A DNA stretch of 64,000 nt from positions 1,240,001 to 1,304,000 of the forward strand of contig NZ_QGEG01000002.1 of the NCBI RefSeq assembly GCF_003149745.1, given 5' to 3'. This document shows positions 38,474 through 56,065 of this stretch, piece after piece. This DNA comes from Flagellimonas aquimarina (lineage in GTDB: Bacteria; Bacteroidota; Bacteroidia; Flavobacteriales; Flavobacteriaceae). The translations under genes were made by a program, and so were the position numbers. How positions within the stretch are numbered: the first letter of the stretch is position 1; every line of letters starts with the position of its first letter. The notes below the pieces were generated by a model, which saw only the letters and a list, made by a program, of their open reading frames with translations, did not search any database and was not told the DNA's origin.

Positions 38474-38947
38474 ATGAAAAACACACAGACCACCATTCTA
38501 CTTGCCCTCTTTTTGGGAATATTTTCAATAACCACTTTAGAGGCTCAGTACGGGAATAGATACGGCAATAATGGCTACGGTAGGCGGCAGAGTACATTGC
38601 CGCAAACTCAAGAAACTCCTAAAAAAGAAGAGCCGCTTACCGCAGAAGAACTTGTTGATGAGCGCATGCCTTCCATAACTGAATCTATTGGGTTAAACCC
38701 ATTTGAAGAGGCTGTTGTGAGGACAACTTTGATAAAATCCGTTCAAAAAAGAATGGAACTTAGAATATTGAATTTGGACCCACCCAAAATGCAAGAAGAA
38801 CTGCAAAAAATAGTGGCCAACCAAAACGAAGAGTTAAAATCTGGCCTACCAGAAGATAAGTTCAATGCCTTCCAAGAACTTCAGGAAAATAGATTCAAGG
38901 ACAAGAAGAAGAAAAAGAAGAAGAAAAAAAAGAAATCCAAAGAATGA
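38474..38947 (+). CDS. small exported protein with poly-lysine tail
   Basis: About 157 residues from ATG 38474 (a TTG at 38462 is also in frame). A signal peptide (to EAQ, about residue 24) is followed by a short Gly/Tyr/Asn/Arg segment, a helical domain (about residues 55-140) and a C-terminal block of some twelve lysines. No known domain. The stop lies 1 nt before the start of the outer-membrane barrel gene, so the two are almost certainly translated from one message and may work together at the envelope. Confidence 0.75.
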   Translation: MKNTQTTILLALFLGIFSITTLEAQYGNRYGNNGYGRRQSTLPQTQETPKKEEPLTAEELVDERMPSITESIGLNPFEEAVVRTTLIKSVQKRMELRILNLDPPKMQEELQKIVANQNEELKSGLPEDKFNAFQELQENRFKDKKKKKKKKKKKSKE

Positions 38948-38948
38948 T

Positions 38949-41462
38949 ATGAGAATACTGCTACTGTCCTTTTTACTGTTAAATACCATAACAACAATTG
39001 CTCAAGGACAGGGCAACCGACCAAATCCAATTAAAACTACAGGGAAAGTAGTAGATATTGATACAGGTCAACCTCTTGAATATGCAACCTTAATACTCCA
39101 GCGCACTAAAAATCCAGAAAGAATAACAGGTGGCATTACTGATGCCATGGGTATGTTTGAGGTTGAAACCTCTCCTGGAGTTTATAATATTCGTATAGAA
39201 TACATTTCGTACAAAACATACGAAGCCAAAGCACAGGTTTTAAGAACAAGTACAGACTTAGGTACTATTAAATTGTCTATTGATGTAGAACAGCTTGAAG
39301 ATGTAGAAGTTGTGGGTGAACGCACAACAGTAGAATTGCGCTTGGACAAGAAAGTCTATAATGTAGGAAGTGATTTAACCGTAAAAGGTGGTTCGGTAAC
39401 AGATGTTCTGGACAATGTACCATCTGTGACCGTAGATGTTGAAGGCAATATAAGTTTAAGGGGCAATGAAAGCGTACGCATACTTATAAACGGCAAACCC
39501 TCTGCACTTTCAGGGCTTAGCCCAGATGCGTTACAGCAACTCCCAGCTGAGGCCATTGAAAAAGTGGAAGTTATCACAAACCCTTCCGCTAGGTATGATG
39601 CTGAAGGTACTGCGGGAATCCTAAACATTATTCTCAAACAAAGTAAAACAGCAGGGTTAAATGGCTCTGTCAACGTCTTTGCCGGAAACCCAGATAATTT
39701 TGGTGGAGCGGTAAGTCTAAACTTAAGAAGGGAAAACTTCAATATTTTTTCTAATACTACCTACCGCTATAGAAATGCTCCCGGAAATGCGCAATTTCTT
39801 CAAGAGAATTTTAATGATGATGGCTCTACCGATAGCTTTCAAGATGAGTTTAGAGAATATCAGCGAGAACGAGATGGATTCAATACCAATTTTGGTTTTG
39901 AACTTTTCCTTTCTGAAAACAGTAGCATTACCAATTCTTTTGTTTATCGAAAAACAAATGGTAAAAATACGGTTGATGTAGATTTTTTCAATTTTGATGC
40001 CCTTAGAAATCCTACTATCCAACGAAACAGATTTACCTTGGAAGATGAAGAAGATGAAAATGTGCAGTATTCCTTGAATTATGAGAAGAAATTCAAAAAG
40101 GATGGACATGTACTGACCATGGATTATCAATATTCCAAAGGAACAGATTTTGAAAATTCTATAATTGATGAAGTTATACTTGGTGAGAATATCGTTTTGC
40201 CAACAGAACAGACCATCAATGACGAAAGTCAAATTAACCAGTTAGTGCAATTTGATTATGTATTACCTTTTGGTAAGGATAATCAATCACAATTTGAATT
40301 AGGATATCGTGGCACTTTCAACAATTTCAATACCGATTTTGATTTTGGCATTTTAAATACAAACGGCTCTTTAAATGTTGACCCAGACTTTAGTAATGAG
40401 CTAAACTACAGTGAATATGTAAATGCGGCGTACACCCAAATAGGAACAAAACTAAAAAAGTTCAGTATTCTTGGTGGTTTACGAATGGAAGCTTCGGATA
40501 TTGGTATTGACTTGGTGGAAACCAATGAGACTACGGACAAGGATTATGTGGATTGGTTCCCTTCTTTGTTTCTGGGCTATGAATTTTCAGAAATGGAACA
40601 ATTGACCATTAGTTACAGTAGAAGACTTAGAAGGCCTAGATCAAGGTTTATTAATCCATTTCCTTCACGTTCCAGTAATACCAACCTATTTCAAGGTAAC
40701 CCAGATTTAAATCCAACGTATACCAACGCATTTGATTTGGGCTATTTAAAAAGATGGGATAAGCTAACCTTTACCACCTCTGCCTACTATAATCGTTCTA
40801 CAGGTGTTTTTCAATTTATTACACAAGAAACCGGAGATTTTGTGGAAATTGAAAACGCCAACAATCCCTCAGAGCCAATATTAGTGCCGGTACAAGTGCG
40901 CACTCCAATCAACTTGGCTACGGATACCCGCTATGGAGGGGAGCTGACAACTTCCTATACTCCAAAGAAAAATTGGCGATTTACATGGAACTTAAATCTT
41001 TTTCAACAACAATTAAGAGGAGATTTCTCGTTTATTGATTTTCAAAATGAAGAAGTTGTTCAAAACTTTGATGCCGACAACTTCACTTGGTTTACGCGCT
41101 TAAGTGCCAAGCTACCCCTACCAGGAGCAATCGATTTTCAATCCAACCTTTTTTATAGGGGAAGACGTATTGATGCACAAAATGTGAATAAAGGAATACT
41201 ATCTACCAATTTGGCATTCAGCAAAGATGTTATAAAGGACAAAGCAACACTTTCTTTAAATGTTAGAGATCTGTTTAATTCTAGAAAGAGAAGAACAGAG
41301 ACTAGAACAGAAAATGTATTTACGGAGAGTGAGTTTCAATTTCGTGAACGGCAAATCACATTATCGTTTTTATATCGATTTAACCAACCTCAAAATGAAA
41401 GAACGAGAAGGGACAGAGGAAGTGGAGGAAATGGGGAAGATGATATAGAATTTGACGGGTAA
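38949..41462 (+). CDS. TonB-dependent receptor-like outer-membrane beta-barrel protein
   Basis: About 837 residues. ATG at 38949 starts a signal peptide (MRILLLSFLLLNTITTIAQ); the open frame before it overlaps the previous gene. A carboxypeptidase-regulatory-like domain (about 35-120: TGKVVDIDTGQPLEYATLIL) is followed by a plug domain (about 135-240: VTDVLDNVPSVTVD, RGNESVRILINGKPSAL, GTAGILNIILK) and a long barrel. This fits the outer-membrane beta-barrel family (OMP_b-brl_3) that imports ligands or acts as a surface channel. Ligand unknown. A strong terminator follows the stop. Confidence 0.9.
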   Translation: MRILLLSFLLLNTITTIAQGQGNRPNPIKTTGKVVDIDTGQPLEYATLILQRTKNPERITGGITDAMGMFEVETSPGVYNIRIEYISYKTYEAKAQVLRTSTDLGTIKLSIDVEQLEDVEVVGERTTVELRLDKKVYNVGSDLTVKGGSVTDVLDNVPSVTVDVEGNISLRGNESVRILINGKPSALSGLSPDALQQLPAEAIEKVEVITNPSARYDAEGTAGILNIILKQSKTAGLNGSVNVFAGNPDNFGGAVSLNLRRENFNIFSNTTYRYRNAPGNAQFLQENFNDDGSTDSFQDEFREYQRERDGFNTNFGFELFLSENSSITNSFVYRKTNGKNTVDVDFFNFDALRNPTIQRNRFTLEDEEDENVQYSLNYEKKFKKDGHVLTMDYQYSKGTDFENSIIDEVILGENIVLPTEQTINDESQINQLVQFDYVLPFGKDNQSQFELGYRGTFNNFNTDFDFGILNTNGSLNVDPDFSNELNYSEYVNAAYTQIGTKLKKFSILGGLRMEASDIGIDLVETNETTDKDYVDWFPSLFLGYEFSEMEQLTISYSRRLRRPRSRFINPFPSRSSNTNLFQGNPDLNPTYTNAFDLGYLKRWDKLTFTTSAYYNRSTGVFQFITQETGDFVEIENANNPSEPILVPVQVRTPINLATDTRYGGELTTSYTPKKNWRFTWNLNLFQQQLRGDFSFIDFQNEEVVQNFDADNFTWFTRLSAKLPLPGAIDFQSNLFYRGRRIDAQNVNKGILSTNLAFSKDVIKDKATLSLNVRDLFNSRKRRTETRTENVFTESEFQFRERQITLSFLYRFNQPQNERTRRDRGSGGNGEDDIEFDG

Positions 41463-45180: not shown

Positions 45181-45867
45181 ATGGCTCCCAAATCCTATGT
45201 TTTGTTTGCATTTGCATTTATTTTTGCTGTAAACGCCAACTTTTCCAATCAGTGTGACAATTTTTATGCAAAAGTCACGTATGGTCTCAGTCATTCAAAA
45301 AAAGCCCTAACCGCAACCAATTTTGAGCATCAGATGTATTATGCCGAAAGAGCTATGATAGCTCTGGAAAAATCAAAATCTTTTCTGGAAGAATGCGGTT
45401 GTGCCAAGTCTGAGGATAAAACTTTAGACGCCATTGAAAGTTTGAACAAAGCCACATCACCAGTGGATTGGGATGCCGGACGTTACTTCACAAAAAAATC
45501 TGTTGGAATAATCAATGAGTTGATCACCATTCTGGATGAATGTACTCTAGGAATTGCTGCAACGGCAGTAGTTGAAGATAGTGCTGACAGCGCACTTGAA
45601 CATGAGGCCTACTCAGATGCAGAAGAAAGTGGGCAAACTTCTGTGGAGATGGAAATGATAACCGTTTTTGATAAGCATGCTAAGGATAAACTGGCATCAA
45701 CTAAAAAAGCCATTGATCAAATGGTTTTGCTTTCAAAATCATTTGATCATGATTCATCAAAAAAACAAAATGATCCCAATAGCTTGGAATTTCACCAAAA
45801 AGCATATCTGCAAGAAGCTAAAAAACTACTTGAACAAGGGTTAAAAGCATTTGAAAAAGAAGAATAA
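45181..45867 (+). CDS. exported helical protein of unknown function
   Basis: A 228-residue protein with a signal peptide (MAPKSYVLFAFAFIFAVNA) and a mostly helical body. Three cysteines in the first half (QCDNF, ECGCAKSED) could form disulfides. An acidic linker (about 145-165) is followed by a lysine-rich helical C-terminus. No domain recognised. It follows the UlaG-like lipoprotein by 66 nt on the same strand and ends 4 nt from the convergent ettA stop. Confidence 0.7.
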   Translation: MAPKSYVLFAFAFIFAVNANFSNQCDNFYAKVTYGLSHSKKALTATNFEHQMYYAERAMIALEKSKSFLEECGCAKSEDKTLDAIESLNKATSPVDWDAGRYFTKKSVGIINELITILDECTLGIAATAVVEDSADSALEHEAYSDAEESGQTSVEMEMITVFDKHAKDKLASTKKAIDQMVLLSKSFDHDSSKKQNDPNSLEFHQKAYLQEAKKLLEQGLKAFEKEE

Positions 45868-48895: not shown

Positions 48896-50524
48896 ATGGA
48901 TATCAACTTCAATAAGAACGAAGACCACAACAAATTAAAACTCTCTGAGCTAAGAAAAAAACTAACGGAGGTTAAGCTCGGTGGAGGCAAAAAACGCATA
49001 GAAAAACACCATGCCAAAGGCAAGATGACAGCTCGCGAACGGATTGAGTACCTCTTAGACGCGAATGCTGATACTGTTGAAATTGGGGCTTTTGCAGGAG
49101 ATGGCATGTATGAAGAACATGGTGGTTGCCCTTCTGCAGGGGTCGTTGTAAAAATTGGATACATTCAAGGCAAACAATGCATTGTTGTGGCCAATGACGC
49201 TACCGTGAAAGCTGGAGCATGGTTCCCCATAACTGGAAAGAAAAATTTAAGAGCTCAAGAGATTTCAATTGAAAACAGATTGCCCATAATCTATTTAGTG
49301 GATAGCGCTGGGGTCTATTTACCTATGCAGGATGAAATTTTTCCCGACAAAGAACATTTTGGAAGGATTTTTAGAAATAATGCCGTTATGAGCAGTATGG
49401 GAATAACACAAATCTCTGCCGTAATGGGAAGTTGCGTGGCCGGCGGTGCATACCTGCCCATTATGAGCGATGAAGCCCTTATTGTAGACAAGACGGGTAG
49501 TATCTTTTTAGCAGGCAGTTACTTGGTTAAAGCGGCTATTGGTGAAAGTATTGACAACGAAACCTTAGGCGGCGCCACTACACATTCAGAAATTAGTGGG
49601 GTAATAGATTATAAAACGAAAGATGATAAGGATGCTTTGGACAAAATAAAGAATATTGTTGGCAAAATTGGAGATTTTGATAAGGCTGGTTTCAATAGAA
49701 TCGAAGCTAAAAAGCCTATTGAAAACCCCCAGGATGTCTATGGTATTCTTCCTGCTTCGCGTGGAGACCAATATGACATGTTGGAAATTATAAAACGATT
49801 GGTAGACAACTCTGAATTTGAACAATATAAGGAAGGTTTTGGAAAGACCATTCTAACGGGTTATGCACGTATTGATGGCTGGGCCGTTGGTATTGTTGCC
49901 AATCAAAGAAAAGTGGTTAAAACAAAAAAGGGAGAAATGCAATTTGGTGGTGTTATCTATTCTGATTCTGCGGATAAGGCCACAAGGTTCATAGCCAACT
50001 GTAATCAAAAGAAAATCCCATTGGTCTTTCTACAGGATGTTACCGGCTTTATGGTAGGTAGTAAAAGTGAACACGGAGGCATTATAAAAGATGGGGCCAA
50101 AATGGTGAATGCGGTAAGCAATTCGGTAGTTCCTAAATTTACCGTAGTAATTGGAAACAGTTATGGAGCCGGTAATTATGCTATGTGCGGAAAAGCCTAT
50201 GATCCAAGACTTATTGTGGCATGGCCAAGTGCCGAACTTGCGGTTATGAGCGGTAACTCAGCTGCTAAGGTTTTGTTGCAAATTGAGAAGGCCTCATTGG
50301 AAAAAAATGGGGATGTATTGAGTGCCGAAAAAGAAAAAGCATTGTTTGATAAGATTAAACAACGCTATGATAATCAGATTTCGCCATACTACGCAGCGTC
50401 TAGACTTTGGACAGATGCCATTATAGATCCATTGGAAACAAGGAAATGGATATCTATGGGCATTGAAGCTGCAAATCATTCGCCCATTGAAAAGCAGTTT
50501 AATATGGGCGTTTTACAAGTCTAA
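48896..50524 (+). CDS. acyl-CoA carboxylase, carboxyltransferase (beta) subunit
   Basis: A 542-residue biotin-dependent carboxyltransferase with N- and C-terminal crotonase-like halves. Motifs: AKGKMTARERIEYLLD, YLVDSAGVYLPMQDEIFP, MGSCVAGGAYLPIMSDE, FLAGSYLVKAAIGE, VFLQDVTGFMVG and GNSYGAGNYAMCGKAYDPR. The DSAGVYLP and GGAYLP pattern resembles methylcrotonyl-CoA carboxylase beta more than propionyl-CoA carboxylase, but the substrate is not certain. The alpha (biotin carboxylase) partner must be elsewhere. Its stop abuts the convergent plug-protein gene with no gap. Confidence 0.9.
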   Translation: MDINFNKNEDHNKLKLSELRKKLTEVKLGGGKKRIEKHHAKGKMTARERIEYLLDANADTVEIGAFAGDGMYEEHGGCPSAGVVVKIGYIQGKQCIVVANDATVKAGAWFPITGKKNLRAQEISIENRLPIIYLVDSAGVYLPMQDEIFPDKEHFGRIFRNNAVMSSMGITQISAVMGSCVAGGAYLPIMSDEALIVDKTGSIFLAGSYLVKAAIGESIDNETLGGATTHSEISGVIDYKTKDDKDALDKIKNIVGKIGDFDKAGFNRIEAKKPIENPQDVYGILPASRGDQYDMLEIIKRLVDNSEFEQYKEGFGKTILTGYARIDGWAVGIVANQRKVVKTKKGEMQFGGVIYSDSADKATRFIANCNQKKIPLVFLQDVTGFMVGSKSEHGGIIKDGAKMVNAVSNSVVPKFTVVIGNSYGAGNYAMCGKAYDPRLIVAWPSAELAVMSGNSAAKVLLQIEKASLEKNGDVLSAEKEKALFDKIKQRYDNQISPYYAASRLWTDAIIDPLETRKWISMGIEAANHSPIEKQFNMGVLQV

Positions 50525-52687
50525 TTATTGTACCGTGAATTTGGCCAATTGCTGTTCGTCATCTGTATCTTGAAGACGAACCAAATGTTCTTCACTGGTC
50601 TGGTTAAACTTTCCAAAATTGTATTGCACTGTGCACTTTAAAAAAGTTGGCGTTTTATTTCCACTAGTCCTATTTCCAAGGTACGTAACGTTCAATATCC
50701 AGTCTCCTATCGTTTCGGAACCAACAATTTCAAACTGTTCATTTGCAAAACCGTGCTGTAGTTCATCCAAAATTCTCTTCCTATCACTTGTGTTCGTGTG
50801 TTCCCAATTAAAAAAACGTTTTTGAGGATTCACAAATTGAACAACAAACTCTGCATCTGGGTTGTTCCAATCCAATATCAATCTTGCGTTATAGGTTAGA
50901 TTGTTCAGGTATTTTTGGTTCACTTTTTTAAAGTCAATATTTTTTCGCTCCTTATTGATTAAATTCCTTATTTCGGTGCCCACCACTTTTTCCAAACTTG
51001 CAAAGTCCAATTTAGCATTAGCAGTTCCATTTGCAATGCTATTGAACATATTTAAGGCACTTTGGTAGTTCCCTGAGTTTTTGTTCGCTATGGCCACATC
51101 GAAATAGGATTGTATTTTATTAGGAAAAGCCTCCAACATCTTATTTGCTGCCAATAGTGCCATTGTATGATTTCCGCTTTCCACAGATTTTAGGAACATT
51201 CCTCTTAGCTCTTCGTATTTCGCGTCCTGTTTTTCTAGGATATTTGATAAAATTCGTTCTGCAATTTCTTGGTTTGAAGCATAAAAGAATCCATAAACAT
51301 CTAAAAAATATTCAGAGGTGTTCCAATATCTATTTCTTTGGTTTAGGTAAAGGTTGTAAGCTTCTTGTAGGTTTTTCCCTTTTTTCAACTCTTTTAAATA
51401 GGGAGTTACCAAGATCTTACTGTTTACCTTGATCTTACCTTCATATATATTATTGGTAAGTCGTGCCAAATCTTTTTTCTGTTTTCTAGGCCCGTCAATG
51501 GTAGCTGTTTTTGTGGTAATCAACAGGACACCATTAGCTCCTTGGCTACCATATCTATTTGTGGCCGAAAGGCCCTTTAAGACAGTTATGTTTGCGATAT
51601 TCTGGGGGTCAATAAAACTAGTGTCCACAATATTTCCGGTGCCCGAATTTGACCTTTCCGTTGGAACTCCATCTATTACAATTAATCCATAATTATTGCC
51701 CAGAATTGAATTACTTGGGCGCATCTTCACCTGGCTCAAATCTTCATTCTGCCCTAAGCTAACACCAGAAAACTTTCCTTGTATTGCATTGTTTGCGGTT
51801 GTTGAAACGGATCCAATATCTTCATCTGATATGGACTGTACTGCGTACCCAATCTTATCTTTGTTTTCTTTACCATATGCGGTTGTCACCTCCTCTTCTT
51901 GCTCTGGTACTTTCTCAATTAAAACAACCTCTTCCAGTTGTATGCCACTATCTTCAAATGAAAAGTTGATGGCGAGGTTATCATCTAGCGTATGTTCTGT
52001 CATTTTGTTTCCGTAAGACACTACCAAAGTATCTCCCACAGCCCCGTTTATTTTAAAATTGCCTTGATCATCGGACTTGACCTGTTCCGCTTCAAACCCC
52101 TTAACATAAATATTGGCGGAAGGAAGGCCGCTTGTGCCACTGTATATTGTACCTGAATATTTTTTTTGATTTTCTTTAGAAGCCTTTGCATCCGATTTGT
52201 CCAATAGGTTGACCAAATTTCCATTGTTAACAATGGATAAAAGATTCAAACTGGCTCTATCAAAATCTTTATTGCTATTTACAATGTACAGTTCTCCCTC
52301 AAAACTAGGTGAGGAGCCACCCGTATTCTGTTTTCCATCTGTAAACAAAAGAACTTCTCCGTTGCCCGCATAAGCTGCCAACTCCTCATAAGAGGTAGCG
52401 CCATCATAATTTACAGCACTTAGCTTTTCCTTTATCCCAGACCAATTACCGGATGTAACTGCAATGTCATATTTGGAAATAAGTTGATTGCTAAATGTAA
52501 GTAAGGTTACATTCGCGTTCCGAATGGTTTTGAAATAGGCATCCAAAAAATAATACTCTTTGTTGATATCCCGATCTTTCATGGATAGGGATACATCCCA
52601 ACAGATAGTGACATTTTTCTCTTCTTGAGCAAACGTCATATTTTGTAATGCAATAAGTAGTAACAATAGCAGGCCAATATGCTTCAT
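50525..52687 (-). CDS. VWA + TonB-plug protein without a beta-barrel (paralogue A)
   Basis: A 720-residue exported protein with an unusual domain order. Signal peptide to about residue 21; von Willebrand A domain (about 25-155) with a complete metal site (DVSLS at 31-35, a threonine in DGATSYEE, an aspartate in LFTDGKQ); carboxypeptidase-regulatory-like domain (about 175-245); TonB plug domain (about 285-400: AIQGKFSGVSLG, GLIVIDGVPTE, YGSQGANGVLLITTK); TPR-like helices (about 420-600); and a C-terminal beta domain (about 615-720: LILDWNNPDAEFVVQFVNP, ILNVTYLGN). No barrel follows the plug. The C-terminal domain and helices match the gene upstream, paralogue B. Function unknown; the end looks DUF2135-like, from memory. 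Confidence 0.85.
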   Translation of the reverse strand: MKHIGLLLLLLIALQNMTFAQEEKNVTICWDVSLSMKDRDINKEYYFLDAYFKTIRNANVTLLTFSNQLISKYDIAVTSGNWSGIKEKLSAVNYDGATSYEELAAYAGNGEVLLFTDGKQNTGGSSPSFEGELYIVNSNKDFDRASLNLLSIVNNGNLVNLLDKSDAKASKENQKKYSGTIYSGTSGLPSANIYVKGFEAEQVKSDDQGNFKINGAVGDTLVVSYGNKMTEHTLDDNLAINFSFEDSGIQLEEVVLIEKVPEQEEEVTTAYGKENKDKIGYAVQSISDEDIGSVSTTANNAIQGKFSGVSLGQNEDLSQVKMRPSNSILGNNYGLIVIDGVPTERSNSGTGNIVDTSFIDPQNIANITVLKGLSATNRYGSQGANGVLLITTKTATIDGPRKQKKDLARLTNNIYEGKIKVNSKILVTPYLKELKKGKNLQEAYNLYLNQRNRYWNTSEYFLDVYGFFYASNQEIAERILSNILEKQDAKYEELRGMFLKSVESGNHTMALLAANKMLEAFPNKIQSYFDVAIANKNSGNYQSALNMFNSIANGTANAKLDFASLEKVVGTEIRNLINKERKNIDFKKVNQKYLNNLTYNARLILDWNNPDAEFVVQFVNPQKRFFNWEHTNTSDRKRILDELQHGFANEQFEIVGSETIGDWILNVTYLGNRTSGNKTPTFLKCTVQYNFGKFNQTSEEHLVRLQDTDDEQQLAKFTVQ

Positions 52688-52874
52688 TTCCTTTAAGATT
52701 TAAGAACCCTTAGTAATGAATTTATCCATTTTAAGGATTATGCTGTTAAAGCTTTTGTTGAAGTTGCCTAAAGTTAAAAAAAAACAGCAATCAGGCCCAG
52801 TATAATTATTATAGAATATTATACGGTTTCTTATTAAAGGTAAATGTTACAAAATACAATTTAACGCAGGACTC

Positions 52875-54632
52875 TTAATTTAAAGATATTGACGACCCCT
52901 GATTAATCCGAAATAATGCTTGGTTTACATTTTTCGTTCCCAGCTTAAATACTTTTACTTCTTTGCGTTGCGATTTTGAGCCATAATCATGGTACACAAT
53001 TGCCTTCAAATAGGTGGGAGTTAAGCTCTTATTTCCTAAATACTTAATGTTTACTTTCCAATTTCCTGAAAACGAATCATCTATTAAATATTCAGCGCAT
53101 GAATATCCAAAGTCCTTTTCTTGGCGAATAGTATTTGCATTTTCTTTAAGACTGTGTTTCCATGTGTAATATTGATTATCCGGATTTACAAATTGAAGTT
53201 CAAATTCTGCCTCGCTGTCATTCCACTCTAACATTAAACGCGTACTGTCAAAATCCTCTTCTTCTAATTCCATTTTCATATTGGCAGGACTCTTGATCAT
53301 ATCTGTCTTTTCCAATGAAAGCAGATTATTAAACTCACGGCTAATAATTCTAGAAAAACTGCTCGTATCAGCCTCCATTATACCTTCATCCAGTAAATAA
53401 AAGTAACGGGCATATAATACAGCCGCTCTTTTCGTGTTTTGAAGGTTTCTGTTGCTTTTGGCGAGGTCAAGATAAGATTGTCTGTACTGAGGGCGAAGAA
53501 TAAATGCCCTTCTGAAGGCTTTGTGAGCCATATCATATCTTTCATGAGATTCATACATATAAGCCAACGCTTTCAAAAGCACGGCATTTTCTTTAAACAA
53601 GCCATAGCCTTTTTTGACAATATCATCTGCATAATCTTTTTGTTTCCATTTCTCATAGAAGTATTGGTAAGAATCCAATAAAAAGTATGGTGAACTTGAA
53701 TATCGTTTTGAATGCATCTCAAATGATGCTTTTGCATCTTCAAAACTACGGGACTCTTGTAATTCTTTTAAGTATGCGGGTGCATTCTTCATTACTCGTT
53801 CCTTAGAAAGAGCATTGCCATCATAGTTATTGTTACGAAGTCTCATTCTATCAAGGTATAACCCATTTTTATCCTTTGGGATAATTGTCCCCGTTTTGGT
53901 GTTAATAATAACTACTCCCCCTTTGGCCAAATTACCATATCGTACCGTTCCAATGGCAGATGGTATGATAGCGATACGGTCAATATTTTGAACATCAATA
54001 AAATCCGGAAAGTCCGTAAACACCTGTCCATCAATGTCAAATACGGCAGGCCAACCACTTCGCAGGAAAACTGCTCTGGTACTTCCTACTGTATTTCCTC
54101 CTCCAAAACCTATACCTCTAGAGACCCTTACTCCGGCAAATCTTCCTCTAAGTACATTCTCGAAATTATATTCTCCAGGTAGGAAATCATCTGCATCCAT
54201 CATCCTTACAGAATAGGAAGTCTTTGTTTTATCTAAATATCCAAAAGCTGTTCTGATGATATTTGGATTGTAGTGATAATCCATTTCCAATTCTTTTTGA
54301 CTACTGCGCCTGTTCCTTGTAACTGTTACATTCTCCAGTTTTTCCACTTTAGGAAACATGACCACATTTAAAACTCTTGTTACATCTTCTACTCGAATCT
54401 GTAATGGCTCCATTCCTTCTGCATTGTAGAACAGCATATCACCTGCACTGGCCACAATCTGGTATGCGCCATCTACATTAGAACTGGAACTTATACCCTG
54501 ATTTACGACTTGAACCTTAACATTTGAGATAGGATTTTCACCATTTGTAACCTTCCCGCTTATTAAACGTTCTGTTGCAAAGCCGGAGAAAATCATAAAA
54601 AAAGATGCGATAAAAGAATAGTGTTTTTTCAT
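52875..54632 (-). CDS. TonB-plug protein without a beta-barrel (paralogue B)
   Basis: About 585 residues from ATG 54632, which starts a signal peptide (MKKHYSFIASFFMIFSGFAT). Order: carboxypeptidase-regulatory-like domain (SGKVTNGENPISNVKVQVV), plug domain (NFENVLRGRFAGVRVSRG, AVFDIDGQVF, RYGNLAKGGVVIINTKTG), TPR-like helices (SYQYFYEKWKQ, VLLKALAYMYES, QSYLDLAKSNRNL) and the same C-terminal beta domain as paralogue A (LMLEWNDSEAEFELQFVNP, VNIKYLGNKS). It lacks the von Willebrand domain. SusC-type plug proteins normally continue into a 22-strand barrel, but only about 330 non-barrel residues follow here. The 187-nt gap to A makes a shared or paired regulation possible. Confidence 0.85.
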   Translation of the reverse strand: MKKHYSFIASFFMIFSGFATERLISGKVTNGENPISNVKVQVVNQGISSSSNVDGAYQIVASAGDMLFYNAEGMEPLQIRVEDVTRVLNVVMFPKVEKLENVTVTRNRRSSQKELEMDYHYNPNIIRTAFGYLDKTKTSYSVRMMDADDFLPGEYNFENVLRGRFAGVRVSRGIGFGGGNTVGSTRAVFLRSGWPAVFDIDGQVFTDFPDFIDVQNIDRIAIIPSAIGTVRYGNLAKGGVVIINTKTGTIIPKDKNGLYLDRMRLRNNNYDGNALSKERVMKNAPAYLKELQESRSFEDAKASFEMHSKRYSSSPYFLLDSYQYFYEKWKQKDYADDIVKKGYGLFKENAVLLKALAYMYESHERYDMAHKAFRRAFILRPQYRQSYLDLAKSNRNLQNTKRAAVLYARYFYLLDEGIMEADTSSFSRIISREFNNLLSLEKTDMIKSPANMKMELEEEDFDSTRLMLEWNDSEAEFELQFVNPDNQYYTWKHSLKENANTIRQEKDFGYSCAEYLIDDSFSGNWKVNIKYLGNKSLTPTYLKAIVYHDYGSKSQRKEVKVFKLGTKNVNQALFRINQGSSISLN

Positions 54633-54718
54633 AGCTTTAAGTTTAGATGCCTTATCAATTAACTGATACAGTGACAATTACTTCCTTAAAGTACTAAAAG
54701 AAAAACGTAAGGGCAATT

Positions 54719-56065
54719 TTAGTTTCCTAAAAATTCCTTAATTCTAGGAATTAACAACAGTTCCGTCTGCCTACCGTTTACATATCTAAAACCATCTTCA
54801 CCATAAAATCCGGCTTCTTCCAACATTATGCGGATATCTCTTTTCCATTCTGGAATATTGACCGTTGCATTGAGCTCAATGGCATATACGGTATTTGGAT
54901 TTAAGGGATAGTTCTCTCCATCATCTTTCATAACCCCGCCTTGAGAATCCCACATGCCTATTGTTGTGCCAGCTGAGTGACCATAGGTTCCTAAAGGGTG
55001 GGTATAGATCGCAGGTCTTAAACCAGCATCTTTAGCTTCTTGAAGTGCTGAGGCTAAAATTTCATTCCCGGTCCTGCCCTTTATCATGTTCTTAGTCAAA
55101 AAATCTTGCACTCGGTTTCCATCTTTTAAGGCACCCACCAAAAATGCAGGGGCTTCTTTTTCATTTGGTTTTAAAACATAGGCCAATTCCTGGCAATCGG
55201 TGTTCAATCTTAGATAGGTAATTCCAAAATCGCAATGCAACAGATCTCCTGGTTGAATGATTAAATCATCTGGTCTACCAGAAAAGGAATACAAATGTCC
55301 TACAAGTTCCTCGCTTGTCCGTTGCACATCTACCGTTGGGTGGAACCAAGTCTCCAATCCCAGATCAGTAACTTTCTGTCGCATCCACCACTCTACCTCT
55401 GTTGTTGTGGTAACTCCTGCCGTTATTATTTTTTCAGAAAAAGCTTCCGAAATAATATCATGGGTAATATCTACCAATTGGTCATAGATGACCATTTCTC
55501 TCTGTGTCCTGGTTTCAATCCACCTTACCGCTAACTGCTCAGCAGAAACCACTTTGGATTGATATTTTTTAGGAAGGTTGGCCATAAATTCATCATAATC
55601 CGTTTTGTCCAATCCGTCCGCAATGTTATGATCTTTGGAAAAGTTAAGACCAATCTTTTTCGGGTTCCGCTCTTCAATTAGCTGCATTAACCTTTTCCAT
55701 TGATTGGGTTCTTTTTCTTTGTCCCAAGCAGACACAATACTCTTACCAACATTATATCTTGCAACCGCCAATTTATCAATGGTCCCCTTTGAGTTATCCA
55801 TATAAAACAAAAGAATGGTTCTCCGTCTTGCATTTAGCCATGTTGCGGGAAGCATTGTCCTTATCACCGGATCCTCATTGTATTCTCTTGAGATTACAAC
55901 CCACATGTCAATCCCTGTATCATCCATTAATTTAGGAAGCAGGGTATTGAAACGCTCTTCCAAAATTTCGTCCACCACTCTAGCACGCTCAGATTCTGGA
56001 AGAATTTGTTGGGAATAGGAAAGAACGGAAAATGCAATAAATAGGGAAAGGGTAATTTTTTTCAT
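54719..56065 (-). CDS. exported M24 family Xaa-Pro aminopeptidase
   Basis: A 448-residue protein with a signal peptide (MKKITLSLFIAFSVLSYSQ), an N-terminal creatinase-like domain and the pita-bread catalytic domain. Metal ligands are visible as aspartates in LLHCDFGIT and NTDCQELAY, histidine in THPLGTYGHSAG and glutamate in YAIELNATV. It would remove N-terminal residues preceding proline, in the periplasm. Transcribed with the genes around it on the minus strand, 86 nt before paralogue B. Confidence 0.9.
   Translation of the reverse strand: MKKITLSLFIAFSVLSYSQQILPESERARVVDEILEERFNTLLPKLMDDTGIDMWVVISREYNEDPVIRTMLPATWLNARRRTILLFYMDNSKGTIDKLAVARYNVGKSIVSAWDKEKEPNQWKRLMQLIEERNPKKIGLNFSKDHNIADGLDKTDYDEFMANLPKKYQSKVVSAEQLAVRWIETRTQREMVIYDQLVDITHDIISEAFSEKIITAGVTTTTEVEWWMRQKVTDLGLETWFHPTVDVQRTSEELVGHLYSFSGRPDDLIIQPGDLLHCDFGITYLRLNTDCQELAYVLKPNEKEAPAFLVGALKDGNRVQDFLTKNMIKGRTGNEILASALQEAKDAGLRPAIYTHPLGTYGHSAGTTIGMWDSQGGVMKDDGENYPLNPNTVYAIELNATVNIPEWKRDIRIMLEEAGFYGEDGFRYVNGRQTELLLIPRIKEFLGN

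Follow-up and report, generated by a model that had tools for sequence, protein, structure and literature searches.

The window, a stretch of 64,000 nucleotides of the Flagellimonas aquimarina genome, contains two adjoining minus-strand paralogous genes, where an earlier note on this DNA had placed them. We designate their products protein A and protein B, and the features of the locus are as follows.

48896–50524, plus strand: carboxyltransferase, convergent downstream neighbour (relative found at 52 of 66 named loci)
50525–52687, minus strand: protein A, 720 aa, with signal peptide, VWA, NTE, Ton-box-like linker, plug, TPR and DUF2135-like domains
50528–50896, minus strand: DUF2135-like terminal β domain of A (residues 598–720; profile comparison)
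50933–51415, minus strand: TPR-like helices of A (residues 425–585; pLDDT mostly >90, weak TPR matches)
51500–51892, minus strand: TonB-receptor plug of A (residues 266–396; Pfam, NCBIfam and PDB matches)
51917–51937, minus strand: Ton-box-like LEEVVLI of A (residues 251–257, within a linker of predicted disorder)
51950–52165, minus strand: SusC-type NTE (CarbopepD_reg_2) of A (residues 175–246; Pfam and model match)
52193–52624, minus strand: VWA domain of A (residues 22–165; PF13519 E 0.0055, below the cut-off, and model match)
52875–54632, minus strand: protein B, 585 aa from the ATG, with signal peptide, NTE, Ton-box-like linker, plug, TPR and DUF2135-like domains, without VWA
52893–53249, minus strand: DUF2135-like domain of B (residues 462–580; Pfam E 0.13, profile comparison)
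53295–53804, minus strand: TPR helices of B (residues 277–446; model)
53883–54257, minus strand: divergent plug of B (residues 126–250; TIGR04056, A–B alignment, profile comparison)
54318–54338, minus strand: Ton-box-like LENVTVT of B (residues 99–105)
54339–54572, minus strand: NTE of B (residues 21–98; Pfam below cut-off, model match)
54719–56065, minus strand: M24 peptidase, upstream neighbour (relative found at 57 of 66 named loci)

Proteins A and B share 27% identity over 465 columns (BLASTP E 4e-45). The mechanical open reading frame of B opens at a TTG at 54677, ahead of the ATG. A third paralogue of 1005 aa is encoded elsewhere in the genome (L013:6496-9513); both it and the VWA domain at the start of A had been missed by the earlier note. 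The signal peptides of A and B are type-I-like, and no lipobox pattern is present in either. In a crude pattern scan, whose odd classes were judged from examples only, the signal peptide ended at Gln in 58 of the 74 entries of type A and 57 of the 80 of type B, which PMC5837995 describes as the usual type-I pattern in the phylum; the scan gave five lipobox pattern hits among relatives, all of them, by eye, inside the signal peptide. The NCBIfam matches of A and B with E values up to 1 include no T9SS C-terminal sorting domain, and A showed a weak PorU N-terminal match (E 0.014, below cut-off). PHROGs and PADLOC searches at E 1e-3 gave no match that would relate the pair to phage or defence, the Pfam and NCBIfam matches of A and B include no SusD model that would relate them to SusD via the TPR, and a promoter and terminator scan returned sites no commoner than in shuffles.

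The predicted structure of A matches VWA structures with Z up to 14.2, and its N-terminal domain has the residues D31-x-S33-x-S35, T98 and D117, which we take to be MIDAS-like. These residues are well kept among A orthologues (D31 58/58, S33 58/58, S35 56/58, D117 56/58, and T98 45/58 with 5 further Ser). Neither Pfam nor family comparison revealed a VWA domain in B. The NTE scores of both proteins (CarbopepD_reg_2; A, E 1.5e-7 and 31.8 bits; B, 2.3e-5 and 24.8 bits) lie below the Pfam cut-off of 32.2, and the models supply the structural match: the NTE of A resembles 9hfj (TMt 0.81) and 6ytc (TMt 0.62), and that of B superimposes on the solved SusC NTE 9hfj with Z 14.6 and 1.9 Å over 79 aligned residues. 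The linker that follows in A (residues 247–265) has pLDDT <50, and the core of its Ton-box-like motif is nearly invariant among the orthologues (L251 58/58, E253 54/58, V254 57/58). A loose form of this motif, which skips some near matches and, in either class, lets in a small number of questionable ones, follows the NTE in 30 of the 38 NTE matches with a plug in the same genome, and also in 8 of 14 without a PF07715 plug and without a PF00593 barrel, one of these 8 looking spurious. The motif follows the NTE in plug-less proteins too and therefore does not show TonB coupling, and we rejected it as proof thereof.

The plug of A was identified by Pfam (PF07715, E 1.2e-12), by the SusC/RagA model TIGR04056 (E 1.2e-34, residues 177–396 only) and by the SusC chain 5fq6_B of the PDB (E 9.7e-15, residues 254–395). 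The plug of B was not picked up by PF07715; it matches TIGR04056 with E 3e-17, and hhalign of 48 B orthologues against seven NTE-plug regions of SusC proteins from the same genome gave a probability of 99.9 and E 7.8e-32 over 217 columns. The B plug is degenerate, retaining 10 of 33 SusC-conserved columns, and its model has blocks of pLDDT 81–88 except in the loop 171–190; in model A, the plug has the lowest confidence of all folded parts (pLDDT about 50–75). Structural matches of model A include SusC chains. In the VIA-align rows, which cover only the VWA part of model A and residues 22–96 and 277–550 of model B, SusC chains are absent apart from two isolated NTE structures.

Downstream of the plug, both models consist of helices and one β domain, with no barrel, and a scan of A and B together with seven flanking proteins of the window found none in those either. 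A complete transporter (NTE, plug and barrel) lies at 38865–41462, about 9 kb away with other genes between. A BLAST search of 1060 neighbour ORFs from the window and 105 relatives' loci against 28 transporter frames of the genome itself found that, in the conserved slot, the family genes have no barrel gene as a direct neighbour; relatives of the barrels occur farther away in the window (38865–41462), L080, L082, L092 and L110, and distant barrels could escape this search. A barrel encoded separately or through a frameshift was rejected, none having been found in the seven flanking proteins or, by this BLAST search, in the conserved slot of relatives. The claim of the earlier note that the two proteins are tandem plug paralogues is borne out, with no barrel encoded in either gene or next to it, and its plug assignment held up in the profile comparisons (TIGR04056, hhalign), with SusC chains among the structural matches of model A; neither of the outcomes that it had named as refuting, a separate or frameshifted barrel and a failed plug assignment, occurred.

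Comparison with SusC/RagA transporters revealed that (i) the NTE (PF13715), the Ton-box-like segment and the plug follow one another in A and B as they do in SusC, with homology supported by profiles; (ii) they differ in having no barrel; (iii) they have additional VWA (A), TPR and DUF2135-like domains; and (iv) they score 119.9 (A) and 62.2 (B) bits against a TIGR04056 cut-off of 368. The terminal domain shared by A and B, which the earlier note had regarded as unknown, is a divergent DUF2135 according to profile comparison (E 4.8e-22, 119 columns), and a new C-terminal fold was rejected on this result. A single-sequence Pfam search found no DUF2135 in A and, in B, the match given above; PF09906 was matched by 7 of 7 VIT-type members submitted.

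A and B form one alignable family with the VIT-VWA-TPR-DUF2135 proteins of Bacteroidota, having in common with them the VWA (A only), TPR and DUF2135-like regions and differing from them in the missing VIT (both) and VWA (B) and in the presence of the NTE-plug. Full-length relatives are ordered VIT-VWA-NTE-plug-TPR-DUF2135, as in the 1105-aa protein L062 (Pfam: VIT 2e-19, NTE 5e-20, plug 8e-22, DUF2135 1e-10 and a weak VWA, 0.0016). Pfam and family comparison found no VIT in A or B, which are hence trimmed derivatives rather than full family members; the pair does not constitute a stand-alone system. No description of the VIT-VWA-NTE-plug-TPR-DUF2135 architecture was found in the titles and abstract openings searched, and no paper with the word DUF2135 was found in the literature covered, most subscription papers and bioRxiv being outside the scope of both searches.

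Among 204 family entries (189 after dropping identical terminal regions; the source genome sets overlap), the plug is present in all proteins of types A, B and C that are complete enough for its presence to be assessed. Long plug-less VIT/VWA forms are spread across the phylum, the plug being absent from long relatives at 19 of 26 phylum loci, and 6 of the 7 plug-bearing long forms of the phylum sample are from the window's own family. The four plug-less entries outside the long phylum set are all fragments: L075:15-1466 begins at a contig start and has an NTE, no plug before the TPR and a VIT-type DUF2135; L141 and L146 start at contig edges; and L145 is a fragment within its locus. On an 80-row tree, which included 16 of the 73 entries of type A and 16 of the 78 of type B, the plug state changes about six times, within the VIT-type part as drawn; B-type is defined by plug presence, so that its uniformity on the tree is no test. 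One origin for all family plugs was rejected on this quick tree (AU p 7e-7; 58 plug rows vs 22). The long relatives suggest insertion of a plug into a VIT-VWA-TPR-DUF2135 protein rather than loss of a barrel.

In the 36 of 57 A orthologues with less than 50% overall identity, the plug is the most conserved domain (mean identity 51%), followed by the DUF2135-like domain (44%), VWA (35%), TPR (33%) and NTE (24%); in B, the plug is no better kept than the TPR (39% each). Since the plug is the best kept part in many A relatives, the plug of A-type proteins probably has a job outside a channel. The suggestion of the earlier note that these plugs act as soluble binding modules fits this strong selection and the type-I-like signal peptides. 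Its other suggestion, a decoy for TonB-linked partners, gained no specific support, the Ton-box-like motif being present in plug-less proteins as well.

The reading that we favour, on a modest balance of probability, is that A and B are secreted, non-lipidated periplasmic multidomain scaffolds derived from the VIT-VWA-TPR-DUF2135 family. The NTE-plug module of SusC-type transporters would have been inserted into a member of this family, after which A would have dropped VIT, and B both VIT and VWA; we infer these losses and the order of events from the domain content of the relatives. Outside a barrel, the plug would serve as a dedicated protein-binding domain, the metal-dependent VWA, TPR and DUF2135-like domains would hold other partners, and the tandem proteins would link clients in the periplasm with a partner that is either in the outer membrane or of Ton type. 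In keeping with this, related genomes encode lipoproteins consisting of a plug alone, as well as plugs within further proteins that lack a barrel, and free-standing plug proteins are present in the same genome and family, in a survey that left out five short frames (L267, L272, L273, L274 and L276). Folding of the plug may depend on a partner, because its pLDDT in model A is low and, according to PMC11658791, the isolated FepA plug behaved as unfolded. Against the scaffold reading stand this low confidence, the plug of B being no better conserved than its TPR, the coming and going of the plug among long VIT-type relatives, and the location of all three TonB C-terminal-domain genes of this genome on contigs other than that of the window.

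A minor but real possibility is that A and B are TonB clients without a barrel, in which TonB grips the Ton-box-like segment and pulls on a soluble or membrane-associated protein, so that the proton-motive force is used for work other than import. The intact SusC order of NTE, Ton box and plug, the near-invariant motif core, the predicted disorder of the segment, as expected of a usable Ton box, and the three TonB genes are consistent with this, as is the resemblance of LxEVVVT to the tested Ton box DEVVVTG of Bt1763 in the available text of PMC7782687. The location of these TonB genes and the recurrence of the motif after plug-less NTEs argue against it. We regard as unlikely the wider reading that Flavobacteriaceae use NTE, Ton box and plug as a general barrel-free module, with TonB or a Ton-type motor gripping soluble and lipid-anchored plug proteins for mechanical or signalling work in the periplasm rather than import.

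The NTE and plug might instead be stable extracytoplasmic modules that set the VWA-TPR geometry without a specific ligand. The long relatives lack the plug at most of the phylum loci, so it is dispensable in the long-form setting; one would not, however, expect a spacer to be conserved above all other domains, and this reading is improbable. Quite improbable is a relic, a plug left from a transporter minus its barrel with no function of its own. The repeated changes of plug state in the VIT-type part of the tree and the degenerate B plug are in its favour, but the plug is the most conserved domain in divergent A orthologues, which speaks against a relic; moreover, all short-form members complete enough to judge carry it, and the long relatives point to insertion. 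A further reading, the earlier note's own alternative, is that A or B supplies its plug to a separate transporter whose barrel lacks one, as a plug on its own would require a barrel encoded at another site. It is very improbable, given the conserved slot without a barrel gene (distant ones could escape the search) and the absence of a convincing plug-less partner in the genome itself (PF00593/PF07715), where 28 of 33 PF00593 barrel matches have a PF07715 plug in frame and, of the remaining five, four have an NTE and frames of 790–1076 aa with room for a divergent plug and one is a weak match of 593 aa. Eleven plug frames of 683–1055 aa in this genome, without a match to PF00593, the barrel model used, were counted as ordinary transporters by length, the ends of seven being inspected.

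Plug domains are usually regarded as the corks of transporters. A family that lacks a barrel and yet keeps the plug better than any other domain suggests that the plug can be a functional module alone, and makes TonB action beyond transporters directly testable with soluble proteins. Annotation by the plug alone may over-count transporters in Bacteroidota.

Partial likenesses to A and B were found in other proteins. A DUF4139/DUF4140 protein of the same genome (L014:4880-6994), which we take to be MuiA-like, has an inserted NTE-plug without a barrel in an unrelated host domain. At this locus, relatives carry YfbK-type VWA proteins, such as L055:13697-15838 (713 aa), which have an N-terminal NTE by Pfam and differ in their vWF_A/VWA/YfbK_C architecture; the first ~250 residues of L055:13697-15838 align with the NTE-plug part of a SusC protein from the genome of the window (E 1.3e-36), although Pfam finds no plug in them. 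The VWA force transducers proposed in PMC12204202, where a VWA protein of the periplasm occurs with a TPR gene in a Ton/Tol setting, are alike as an idea and differ in having a transmembrane helix and motor box, with no plug mentioned in the accessible text. Residues 22–129 of the B ORF, that is, the NTE only, match BamP (NF053692; E 4e-6, 26.4 bits against a cut-off of 230), and the NTE of B also matches chain E of the solved F. johnsoniae BAM complex (9n2d, Z 11.0).

Proteins A and B are encoded consecutively on the minus strand; the gene on one side of the pair encodes an M24 peptidase, and the gene on the other, which is convergent, a carboxyltransferase. The genes concerned are as follows:

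50525–52687, minus strand: A, 720 residues
52875–54632, minus strand: B, the neighbouring paralogue, 585 residues
38865–41462: a barrel relative
45181–45867: a 228-residue protein with no Pfam match

A comprises, in order, a signal peptide, a VWA domain, a SusC-type N-terminal extension (NTE; CarbopepD_reg_2), a linker, a plug, a TPR region, and a β domain; B has the same order minus the VWA domain, and the two proteins share 27% identity over 465 columns. The third paralogue (L013:6496–9513, 1,005 residues) lies ~153 kb from A and B, and a further NTE and another domain precede its VWA domain. The window's genome is close to Allomuricauda/Flagellimonas; in the nearest named locus, identity to the C-terminal half of A is 87%. 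At the place equivalent to that of the 228-residue protein, many related loci have an unlabelled ORF of ~225–237 residues.

The plug of A was matched by PF07715 (E = 1.2e-12); the PF07715 search of B did not find its plug. TIGR04056 matched A (1.2e-34) and B (3e-17), both far below the family cut-off because the N-terminal part alone matches. Further comparisons revealed that (i) residues 254–395 of A match the solved SusC 5fq6 (E = 9.7e-15); (ii) the profile of 48 B orthologues aligns, across both NTE and plug (217 columns, E = 7.8e-32), with the N-terminal regions of seven SusC proteins from the same genome; (iii) a Foldseek search with the model of A listed SusC chains (8aa4_A with 36% identity over 131 columns at 3.3 Å; the listing does not give which residues of the model are aligned) and two solved NTEs; and (iv) of 33 plug columns conserved among seven SusC plugs, 18 are kept at ≥80% in A orthologues and 10 in B orthologues.

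The earlier note could not name the terminal domain. By alignment we assign it as a divergent DUF2135 domain, because it aligned with the terminal domain of VIT-type relatives (E = 4.8e-22, 119 columns), 7 of 7 of which match PF09906 at 0.01 or better. The Pfam search of A alone gave no match in this domain, and that of B alone gave DUF2135 at E = 0.13; 18 of 30 family members matched DUF2135 at E = 1 or better, the best at 5e-21. The conserved acidic motif of the VIT-type domains, DxDxDL..DP, reads ExEF.L..NP in the A and B consensus (50528–50896 and 52893–53249), so that the site, if it binds metal in the VIT-type domains, may differ in A and B.

The anatomy and relationship of A and B are shown, as is selection on the plug of A. 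In the A orthologues less than 50% identical to the window protein (36 of 57), mean identity is 51% for the plug, 44% for the DUF2135-like domain, 35% for VWA, 33% for TPR, and 24% for the NTE, and plug entropy is the lowest of the domains (1.46 bits). In the corresponding B orthologues (38 of 47), the DUF2135-like domain ranks first (61%), and plug and TPR are equal (39%). The VWA domain of A probably binds metal, since the residues that we take to be its MIDAS motif are near-invariant (D31 and S33 in 58 of 58, S35 and D117 in 56 of 58, T98 in 45 of 58 plus 5 Ser); by eye, the Thr position differs in the third paralogue.

The signal peptides of the family are type I in appearance. The likely cut in A exposes Gln 21, which is kept in at least 90% of orthologues; the window's B lacks the Gln. 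By a crude pattern, the peptide is Gln-type in 58 of the 74 A-type entries and in 57 of the 80 B-type entries. The remainder comprised 24 with another type I look, 5 lipobox matches (within the signal peptide by eye), and 10 with no recognised peptide, some being truncated ORFs or pattern misses. The Gln rule for type I signal peptides comes from PMC5837995. A type IX sorting domain was searched for in A and B and not found.

According to PMC7782687, the tested Ton box of Bt1763 (DEVVVTG) follows the NTE, is flexible, and is required for normal growth on levan. A has LEEVVLI within a linker predicted to be disordered, and B has LENVTVT. The control set held 57 NTE-type matches of the same genome, 38 near a plug (two of them, those of B and of the third paralogue, being manual additions) and 19 without one. 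The pattern occurs in 30 of the 38; the 19 comprise 4 with a PF00593 barrel, the first NTE of the third paralogue, and 14 others, of which 8 (one doubtful) carry it. Hence the motif accompanies the NTE and alone is no argument for TonB. We infer a binding partner for the plug and a role for A and B as periplasmic scaffolds. A bold reading, open to testing with soluble fragments, would have a Ton-type motor act on barrel-free plug proteins.

Among 66 named loci, 57 have an M24 relative, 52 a carboxyltransferase relative, and 48 both; 37 have two to five family members. The named records are labelled Flavobacteriaceae, a genus presumed to fall within that family, Flavobacteriales, Bacteroidia, or Bacteroidetes, the exception being L150 (Cytophagaceae). 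BLAST against 28 transporter frames of the window's genome found no barrel gene beside the family genes in the conserved slot. Barrel relatives lie farther off, at 38865–41462 in the window, in other gene surroundings (L080, L082), and near locus ends (L092, L110); the three TonB C-terminal-domain genes of the genome sit on contigs other than the window's. In relatives, the slot is sometimes occupied by a VWA protein of YfbK type, alignable over its initial ~250 residues with the SusC NTE-plug, by an ORF of 155–206 residues (both examples scanned are plug proteins), or by a gene corresponding to the N-terminal portion of the third paralogue. In L079 (8603–11317), a 904-residue protein with MG2 as its sole Pfam match and a plug-like stretch by eye lies between a family member and the M24 peptidase. 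In several genomes, a gene for 378–395 residues comprising an NTE and another domain (as in L046:10146–11315) adjoins the family genes. By eye its product is similar to the N-terminal portion of the third paralogue, there fused to VWA-plug-TPR-DUF2135, and this fusion hints that the two work together. The A-type gene seems to be divided between two ORFs in L117 (380 + 348 residues) and L136 (133 + 599); gene breakage or an error in sequencing may explain this.

Barrel-less plugs are not limited to the A and B pair. The same genome encodes a 704-residue MuiA-like DUF4139/DUF4140 protein with an NTE-plug inside DUF4139 (L014:4880–6994) and a 128-residue lipoprotein with little beyond the plug (L182:4837–5223; PF07715, E = 5.8e-7). 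The latter has matches at 1e-6 in 37 of 149 genomes of the window's taxonomic family (own included), many in transporter-sized frames. Seven short frames of ~130 residues (that of L182, L265, L266, and L268–L271) all have a lipobox by eye followed mostly by plug, a count that leaves out five more short frames. By eye, frames of 233–238 residues in L280 and L293 seem to be signal peptide, NTE, and plug alone.

The C-terminal half of A has matches at E = 1e-3 in 47 of the 149 genomes (own included); forty loci of these genomes supplied 54 members, and the window's two proteins plus the third paralogue bring the number to 57. A 30-member profile matched 222 of 296 genomes of the phylum at E = 1e-5, the weaker listed matches mainly spanning the TPR part. 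Matches above 200 bits over most of the profile occur in 27 genomes, own included, and the full-length architecture is VIT-VWA-(NTE-plug)-TPR-DUF2135. The other genomes contribute 26 such loci, and in 19 of these the plug profile built from the family shows no plug; L190, which belongs to the 19, has a weak single-sequence plug match (6e-4). The 7 plug-bearing loci lie in the window's taxonomic family (6) or the same class (1); L186, L205, and L207, which are plug-less, lie in the window's taxonomic family as well. The wide spread of plug-less VIT forms suggests that they may be ancestral. A quickly built 80-row tree has six changes of plug state; a single clade of all plug rows was rejected on this tree (p-AU 7e-7).
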